DNA from: Taxawa tesnikishii (nom. ined.)
Lineage: Eukaryota; Ascomycota; Dothideomycetes; Dothideales
Length of the DNA stretch: 64,000 nucleotides
Direction: 5' to 3'
Assembly (NCBI GenBank): GCA_030247885.1
Contig: JAPDRO010000014.1
Span: 434,001 to 498,000, forward strand
Positions 31,917 to 33,502 of the stretch are shown here, one piece after another. Every line of letters begins with the position of its first letter. Position 1 is the stretch's first letter. A program made the position numbers and the translations under genes. The notes under the pieces are model-generated. The model was not told where the DNA came from and did not search any database. It was given only the letters and a program-made list of their open reading frames with translations.

Positions 31917-33502
31917 TCAAAAAGAAGCATAAGTTGAGCCAATGTCACCGAACTTGATGTTCGAGAACGTGACGCTGGCGCCTGGAGTATCCTTCTCAAT
32001 CGTCGCCGCCACGCCGGAGTCAGCAGCGCAAATACCCCTGACAACGCCCGGGCTCGAGGTGCTCGCAGTAGCAGGGTACGGAGCATCCAGCCAGCGCATT
32101 TTGGCAGCATAGTCATCCCCGGAGGGCCACGTTAGCTAGAAGACCCCGCCGCTGAAAGGCAAAAGGGGCGCGAAGACTTACCAGATGCTCATAACGAGCA
32201 CCATACCGCGCTCGAACGCGTCACCCATGGTGCTCAAGCCGCCCTTTGTCTCGAAGTCGTCGGTGTCGCCGAACGCCGTCTTCTGCGCCCTGCAGAAGGG
32301 GTCGGAGACGCTGTTTCCGCTCACGCCCGCAATATCCGATACCGAGTTCTGAACCACAGTTCCGTCCTGGATGTACAGTCTCTTGATCTGGCTCAGCGCG
32401 CCCGTAGCCGTGCCGTCGGCAGTGACGAACTGTGTGACGACGGTGAACTTGGATTCGGTGGAGACGAGGCCCGAGGGCCCGTAGAAGAACGTGTTGCCCA
32501 TACGGTACGGATTGAAGTCGCAGCTGTCCTTGTCGCAGATGGCGGATGTAACGGTCAAAGCCTGAACCGCAGGTTTCGGTCGAGTTGCAGCGCGCTTGGC
32601 CAGTCGAGGAACAGGGATGTGGTGTGAAGGCCGCCGAGATGCTGTTGGCTTCCCAGACGTCCATTTCGGTGCAGCACGACCCGTAGGAACTGGTGCCGAA
32701 ATTGGGGTCGCCCGTTGAAGGAGTCCAGTCGTTGAGGTTGGCCTCGCCATTGATGGACTTGGTGTCCTGAGGGCACTAGGCATCACAGTAGCCTGTGCCG
32801 TATTTGGCTCCGGCTTTGTTGGATGGGTACTCGCTCATTCCACCATCGGCATCCATCTCGACAAAGTACGAGGCGCCGTTGAGTCCACATGGCAGGTTAG
32901 AGACATCGACGTCAAAAGAGAACTGCTGGTTTGTGAGCTTGAACAGCTGGTACTCCGAATCGGCGCTGCCCATGGAGTAGACACGAGAGCCCGCATTAGT
33001 AGAGTAAGCTCCCCGCGTGACGAGTGTGAGCGTGAGCGAGTCATCTGCTGCTTTTATGCCATAGGTGCCGGTGTAATCGGCTCCGTCAAGGGCGCAGTTG
33101 GAAGCGCATGTGGCTCCATCAGGGCAGAGGGTCGAATCCCAGGTGTTTCCGGTGTAGCAGTTTGTGGAGCAGGGTTGGCAATGCACGGATATTTATACAT
33201 TATAAAGAAGTGAACAACAACTGAATACACTAAATATACCGAATATTCAGTTGTTATTCAGTGCTTTATAATGATGAATATTCAGTCATTGCCAACCCTG
33301 TTGTGGAGCCGCTGGTAGAGTGCAGCCAGCGCCAATTGCTGTCAAGCACGATCGAGGTGTCCTGAGTGGTGCAGCCGGTGGTGTTGCATGACTGGGTGCT
33401 GAGCTTGGGGTGCGACTCTGCGGTTGAAGAGCCGACTTGCTGGCCGTAGGCTCCAGCGAAGAGCGACAGAGTTGCCAAAGCAGAGGCGACGGATTGATGC
33501 AT
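31917..33502 (-). pseudogene. GH7 cellulase (cellobiohydrolase-type), disrupted
   Basis: Secreted glycoside hydrolase family 7, acting on cellulose from the chain ends if a cellobiohydrolase. It has a signal peptide (SVASALATLSLFAGAYG), the mature start SHPKLSTQSCNTTGCT, WRWLHSTSGST, the catalytic block [12 protein letters not shown] (nucleophile and acid/base Glu), [10 protein letters not shown] and the C-terminal [13 protein letters not shown]. No CBM1 follows. A 131-bp MITE with an 8-bp duplication splits the codons right after the conserved GST (33162-33308). It adds 139 bp, which shifts the frame and brings stops. A separate in-frame TAG at 32776-32778 replaces an expected Gln codon (CDA-stop-CPQ). 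One frame change lies near 32555-32575. An intron near 32100-32180 has a donor GTAAGTC but an unclear acceptor. The MITE makes this a true broken gene unless the insertion is polymorphic. Confidence 0.88.
33170..33300. mobile_element. hAT-type fold-back MITE, 131 bp
   Basis: Non-autonomous DNA transposon. Both ends carry the perfect 14-bp terminal inverted repeat CAGGGTTGGCAATG. The element is flanked by an exact 8-bp direct repeat, TTGTGGAG, at 33162-33169 and 33301-33308. Eight-bp duplications and CAGGG-type ends are typical of the hAT superfamily. The two halves pair along most of their length (both contain ATTATAAAG and CAACTGAATA), so it is a near palindrome. It is AT-rich, unlike the gene around it. 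There is no transposase inside; an autonomous partner would have to be elsewhere. The perfect duplication and ends suggest a recent insertion. Confidence 0.93.

Follow-up and report, generated by a model that had tools for sequence, protein, structure and literature searches.

The locus examined here raises the question of how a 131-bp fold-back sequence came to lie within an exon of a fungal GH7 cellobiohydrolase gene, and whether its arrival caused the loss of that gene. It is situated in a 64-kb window (by the window we mean the whole stretch of DNA that was analysed), which corresponds to C6:434001-498000 of a source assembly of 29.37 Mb in 34 contigs. We hold with considerable confidence that the sequence is a copy of an orphan hAT-type MITE family, inserted into the GH7 exon by a transposase that was supplied from elsewhere. 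What the analysis describes is a small family of orphan hAT-type MITEs in a fungal genome, together with one insertion within a cellulase exon.

The insertion and the interrupted GH7 gene

The element, a non-autonomous fold-back MITE of hAT type, occupies positions 33170-33300 (131 bp); it is near-symmetric and is drawn here on the minus strand, the coding strand of the GH7 gene. The direct repeat TTGTGGAG, the target-site duplication, abuts it on each side (33162-33169 and 33301-33308), so that the whole insertion spans 33162-33308. The 14-bp terminal inverted repeat CAGGGTTGGCAATG, which carries T at position 7 (T-type), lies at 33170-33183 on the plus strand, and its T-type partner, the reverse complement of CAGGGTTGGCAATG, lies at 33287-33300 on the minus strand. 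Further inside, the arms at 33198-33227 and 33244-33273 (together 33198-33273) are 90% complementary, and the whole element contains five TGAATA/TATTCA hexamers. A preliminary description of the locus had reported the 8-bp duplication and the 14-bp ends; both are perfect, and both were confirmed to the base. The AT-richness that it noted was likewise evident, the GC content being 34% in the element and 54% in the window. The single strand folds at −39 kcal/mol, compared with −9.4 (sd 2.4) in 200 dinucleotide shuffles (z = −12.4). The phrase "almost fully palindromic" in that description is slightly generous, since the arms are 79% alike. When the window was scanned for perfect 14-bp inverted repeats that lie within 300 bp and are flanked by a perfect 8-bp direct repeat, this single site was found; none appeared in 20 mononucleotide shuffles, even when the setting was relaxed to 10 bp plus 8 bp. 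The element has no coding capacity, being 131 bp long with only short inner stop-to-stop frames.

The GH7 gene is read on the minus strand. The piece upstream of the insertion, which begins with the start codon, covers 33309-33502, and the piece downstream covers 32779-33159. An in-frame TAG stop (32776-32778) then falls inside the GH7 domain, and beyond it the gene continues in the same frame (32560-32772) up to a frame break within 32540-32565, either a lesion or an assembly error, where the profile switches frame near its position 249, near 32548. A piece in the shifted frame (32181-32548) is followed by a stretch without GH7 match (32118-32181) that has GTAAGT at its head and an in-frame TAA (32178-32180); this stretch may be an intron or a further lesion. 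The final piece (31917-32117) closes with a stop codon. Four pieces (1-50, 40-249, 249-373 and 373-435) together span positions 1-435 of the GH7 profile PF00840; the second of them has the TAG inside, while the third is in another frame and has the TAA at its end.

The preliminary description placed the element in a GH7 exon, and this position was verified by searching the two GH7 flanks separately against the PDB. Both flanks matched the same GH7 chains. The upstream piece was aligned to its end in 22 of the 30 chains, the alignment in the other eight stopping at an earlier residue. In all 22, the last residue matched by the upstream piece is 48 (47 in two chains) and the first matched by the downstream piece is 50 (49 in those two), and the residue between the pieces is the codon split by the insertion. 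As judged from these alignments, the GH7 pieces that flank the element represent the empty site at the protein level. The best PDB matches of both pieces were cellobiohydrolases rather than endoglucanase.

A dispersed family and the age of its members

The genome was queried with the 147-bp stretch and searched with end patterns allowing one and three mismatches, followed by inspection; the counts obtained are lower bounds. The 147-bp query matched 14 places, comprising the window copy, 12 other near-full-length copies and one truncated copy (C34:29125). The 12 copies share 85.5-95.4% identity with the window copy, and 10 of them are exactly 131 bp long, the other two being 132 and 140 bp. Six divergent relatives also have two ends (C6:556303, C18:199068, C20:408567, C11:651295, C32:56341 and one on C3 ending at 280754), and lone ends were found at C21:161665 and C17:167844. 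The family consists of at least 19 two-ended elements, the window copy included, and at least three one-ended elements. The preliminary description had suggested that there may be related copies flanked by other 8-bp duplications and had named a lack of other copies as evidence against its reading; the genome search yielded the 12 near-full-length and six divergent two-ended elements.

Comparison of the left and right 8-mers that flank the 19 two-ended elements showed 8, 7, 6, 4, 2 and 1 positions alike in 6, 4, 2, 1, 2 and 4 elements, respectively. At least six of the eight positions were alike in 12 elements and at least seven in 10, whereas among 342 cross-element pairings of left and right 8-mers, six positions were reached once and seven never. 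Seven of the 19 elements have no 6/8 duplication at the expected place. At one of these loci (L002), the matching 8-mer is displaced by one base, which makes it the thirteenth element with a duplication; L008, L012 and L042 have 7/8 matches further out that, with many offsets tried, are possibly due to chance, and the flanks of L041 and L043 show no duplication.

We also scanned with Pfam 20 open frames in the flanks of the copies, taken from 15 of the 19 other loci (all except L008, L023, L041 and L043). Ten of the frames gave a match, two of which (WW beside L024 and CorA beside L025) did not reach the curated cut-off, and none of the 20 contained a domain split by the element. The L002 copy is located where a 270-aa open frame without Pfam match ends. 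Only for the window copy was interruption of a recognised domain shown.

Three members of the family have unusual structures. The broken end of the truncated copy (L014, around 1500-1604; C34:29125-29203) adjoins TCTAGGGTTAGGG, which resembles the TTAGGG telomere repeat and lies about 29 kb from the contig end; the break may be a healed one. In the copy at L012 (1501-1640; C5:95289-95428), the central ACTGAATAT unit is expanded by 9 bp, which indicates that the middle of the MITE acts as a small tandem repeat. At L044, from 1345 (C17:167844), a lone MITE-type end leads into an AT-rich stretch that contains TGAATA-like motifs and could be the worn end of a longer element; a second end with matching duplication was not found within 10 kb.

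The preliminary description called the insertion recent. Pairwise distances among the 131-bp copies are close to a star, and the window copy has three private changes in 129 compared sites (2.3%). When position 7 is excluded, the five T-type copies differ from the majority sequence at 3, 3, 3, 4 and 8 sites, the window copy at 3, and the eight G-type copies at 5, 5, 6, 6, 7, 7, 7 and 15. Just two other copies are as little changed as the window copy, yet the latter is not a fresh insertion, and "recent" holds only in this relative sense. The smaller number of differences suggests, as a trend, that the T-type copies may be younger than the G-type copies.

The mode of change was considered separately. 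RIP was rejected as the source of the changes, five of the 53 private changes being of the CpA-to-TpA type. Changes of A to G and T to C together account for 27 of the 53, compared with seven of C to T and G to A; this excess may represent the drift of an AT-rich element toward genome composition. We also rejected co-variation of the arms as a sign of hairpin selection, since a change on both sides was seen in one of 53 pairs (485 of 500 shuffles were equal or better). Further pair types in the arms were at chance level (317 of 500 shuffles). Five cells were changed on both sides, all at position 7, and 19 of 500 shuffles reached five; the covariation score and the percentage paired were each reached by three of 500 shuffles, figures that do not amount to a probability for related sequences.

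State of the GH7 and GH6 genes

According to the preliminary description, the insertion had cost the fungus a cellobiohydrolase. The insertion does break the reading frame, but the gene, whose frame is no longer intact, also bears the in-frame TAG as well as the frame break, so that the MITE is one among several lesions. It may have been the first of them or a later one. One possible hypothesis is that the GH7 gene was already a pseudogene, so that the MITE entered dead DNA and caused no loss. The two additional lesions are what such a history would leave, and the genome's second GH7 gene has a frame break too, which would suit relaxed selection on GH7 genes generally. We give this hypothesis a substantial chance, though one that falls short of even. 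Three observations weigh against it. First, suppose that the gene has evolved neutrally over the time in which the MITE copy acquired its divergence (2.3%); the 1353 sites examined in the GH7 pieces should then have gained 0.90 stops, in a calculation confined to stops, and one stop, the TAG, is seen. The stop count is at the level of neutral decay since the insertion, and no earlier death of the gene is needed. Second, the GH7 pieces still match strongly (E 1.5e-61 for the downstream piece). Third, the frame breaks could be assembly errors.

The second GH7 gene (C1:1617273) is of the endoglucanase type, one of its nine best PDB matches being named glucanase and eight endoglucanase. Profile positions 5-339 lie in a 397-aa open frame and 341-435 in another frame. 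The switch from 339 to 341 takes place at C1:1618200-1618290 (L032, about 2700-2790), which leaves hardly any room for an intron, and the gene appears to be broken by a frame break or by an assembly indel. The presence of a frame break in this gene as well means that two explanations have to be considered, decay of both GH7 genes or indel errors in the assembly. Such errors, if real, would also cast doubt on the window gene's own break near 32548. The two broken frames make a candidate, not a proof, for a decaying GH7 attack on cellulose. GH6 was found at a single place in the genome (C7:747064-748134), with four stops inside the match that we tentatively read as located in introns. The change of lifestyle to which the preliminary description alludes is speculation.

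Mobilization of the family and comparison with known systems

The ends of hAT elements follow the YARNG rule, and an 8-bp target consensus exists for the Ac and Buster types. The element most likely belongs to hAT, an assignment based on the length of the duplication and on the ends, not on a parent protein. The hAT-type features seen are the 8/8 duplication at the window copy, ends that start with CAGGG, dispersed copies of uniform length and the absence of coding capacity. An Ac-type or Buster-type 8-bp consensus was not evident by eye in the duplications of the family.

The preliminary description raised the possibility of an active hAT transposase with the same ends, and this part of it found no support beyond two weak traces of the hAT dimerisation domain PF05699, with resemblances to the ends beside them at chance level. 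The first trace scored 26.6 bits (cut-off 21.4) and has a TGA inside (C13:387779); the second, at 15.4 bits, is below the 21.4 cut-off. At each of these two loci, a 14-base end resemblance has three mismatches, with none at two or fewer, and the 26-base end pattern gave one resemblance with seven mismatches, at one of the two; we take these resemblances as chance. PF14372 and PF04937 had no match in the assembly, which is weak evidence, as both models matched nowhere else either. The six zf-BED matches were all below the cut-off, and since this model was weakly matched in three of 14 control genomes, all prokaryotes, it is uninformative. The same method scored 150 DDE_1 (pogo-type) matches out of 195 candidates, which indicates that it is able to find fungal transposases. 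Neither the Pfam profiles, nor the end patterns with one and three mismatches, nor the flanks of three one-ended copies revealed an autonomous parent, and the end-pattern searches gave short or one-ended relatives only. The source of the enzyme may have been lost, may be absent from the assembly only, or may have diverged beyond the reach of the profile models. Since no source was found in the assembly, the family is probably stranded in this genome now.

The DDE_1 matches are unevenly distributed. Contig C2 (1,163,921 bp, about 4% of the assembly; L049, L050 and L051) holds 123 of the 150 scored matches, the remaining 27 being elsewhere, and many of those on C2, of pogo/Fot1 type, lie in open frames of 300-700 aa. 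The frames at C2:1000-10999 are RecQ-helicase-like when read by eye. The contig has the appearance of an accessory or subtelomeric chromosome crowded with transposons. The query and end-pattern searches listed no copy of the MITE family on it.

An alternative is that a cut-and-paste superfamily other than hAT, also making duplications of about 8 bp, mobilized the family. The failure to find a hAT parent would fit such an origin, and the superfamilies covered by our search were hAT, MULE and pogo-type. However, CAGGG ends combined with 8-bp duplications are hAT-like, the MULE transposase model PF10551 had no match in the assembly, and the abundant pogo-type enzymes make 2-bp TA duplications; we regard this alternative as improbable. 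An even less probable explanation is that the element is spliced out as an intron, in the manner of introners or of Ds, and that the insertion is tolerated. Mobile elements of this structure, with inverted repeats and duplications of 8 bp, are able to serve as introns, and a paper in the reference list of PMC3260210 reportedly, by its title, deals with the alternative splicing of Ds1 out of exonic sequence in maize. Here, in contrast, none of the nine GT sites on the coding strand of the 147-bp stretch is GTAAGT, GTATGT or GTGAGT, no AG occurs beyond position 88 when scored within that stretch, and the GH7 gene is broken at other places anyway. Finally, an endogenous regulatory or small-RNA hairpin, or some palindrome unrelated to transposons, would account for the very stable predicted fold but hardly deserves consideration, given that the dispersed copies have target duplications of their own and that, apart from the one pair in 53 changed on both sides, most changes affect a single arm, as neutral decay predicts.

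We return, then, to the insertion of a hAT-type MITE. In the sequence of events that we favour, a hAT transposase supplied from outside the element would have recognized the 14-bp ends, and probably the TGAATA/TATTCA hexamers also. The element would have been excised from a donor site and pasted into the GH7 exon, with duplication of 8 bp of the target. The gene would have been dead from the insertion on, or already earlier, and further lesions would have accumulated by neutral decay.

Two features of the family bear on what such an enzyme might recognize. The first is position 7 of the terminal repeat, which is T at both ends in nine of the 19 elements, G at both ends in nine and G/A in one; T/G was not observed. 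The two ends match at this position in 18 of 19 elements, whereas at the other positions of the repeat, the ends disagree in 11 of 19 elements, at a single position in seven of these. Position 7 is, moreover, the only pair in the 131-bp family with standard changes on both sides. The copies share ancestry, and the match at position 7 may go back to one event, so it serves as a lead, not a statistic. The second feature is the TGAATA/TATTCA hexamer, of which each of the 16 copies counted has 3-9, compared with a shuffle mean of 0.1-0.3; none of 300 shuffles per copy attained the observed number. In five family representatives it ranks first among the interior hexamers, with 18 occurrences, whereas no hexamer exceeded 7 across 300 shuffle sets. 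These representatives are not fully independent, since some are alike inside (A with D, and B with C). The next three hexamers (ATATTC, ACTGAA and ATTCAG) overlap TGAATA/TATTCA in one CTGAATATTCAG-like motif. No TGAATA hexamer was found in L041, the fifth representative and the most divergent relative. The hexamers resemble the subterminal repeats of hAT elements and are candidate transposase-binding repeats.

One speculative interpretation, which we think rather unlikely to hold as a whole, is that the family is a stripped-down hAT substrate that consists almost wholly of two ends and a palindromic array of predicted binding hexamers. The T/T and G/G end classes would be mobile only if matched, and the same 131-bp interior would have switched class by a concerted change at both ends, after a change in an enzyme that is now lost here. 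The matched T/T and G/G ends, together with the hexamer array, would lead to a testable statement on the bases that a hAT transposase reads at both ends together.

A search of the open literature (subscription papers and repeat libraries were outside its scope) did not find these ends described, and as far as such searches show, the 131-bp family is new and of a Hormin-like kind. MITEs of Zymoseptoria tritici are described as short and non-autonomous, frequently situated close to genes and hardly touched by RIP (PMC9970103). The present family resembles them in showing little RIP (5 of 53 changes CpA-to-TpA), but those are other families, and the comparison is one of description, not of sequence. 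Another comparison is with Ds1 and Ds-l4 of maize, which are short and share with the autonomous element only the ends and some hexameric repeats, while their interiors differ and their duplications are 8 bp long (PMC3260210). In that system the Ac transposase is known, and the repeats, of a kind that hAT enzymes use, are AAACGG for Ac (PMC3260210), whereas here the hexamer is TGAATA and our searches found no parent enzyme. A more similar hexamer occurs with Kat1, the domesticated hAT transposase of Kluyveromyces lactis: its target stretch repeats TGAATT, one base off TGAATA, although Kat1 is a host gene with a role in mating-type switching (PMC4763223).

A close parallel is Hormin, a miniature relative of Hornet1 in the hAT superfamily that lies in an exon of AVR1 in Fusarium oxysporum f. 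sp. lycopersici and has the ends CAGGGTTCAAATCCA and an 8-bp duplication (PMC3428301). Both are non-autonomous hAT-type elements in a fungal exon, with a CAGGGTT start, an 8-bp duplication and many copies in one isolate. Hormin differs in being 759 bp long, with 15-bp ends and an autonomous relative, Hornet1, whereas the present element is 131 bp long and folds back over nearly its whole length, no parent was found in the assembly, and only the first seven bases of the ends are common to the two. The insertion of Hormin into AVR1 is the same kind of event as the insertion into the GH7 exon (PMC3428301).
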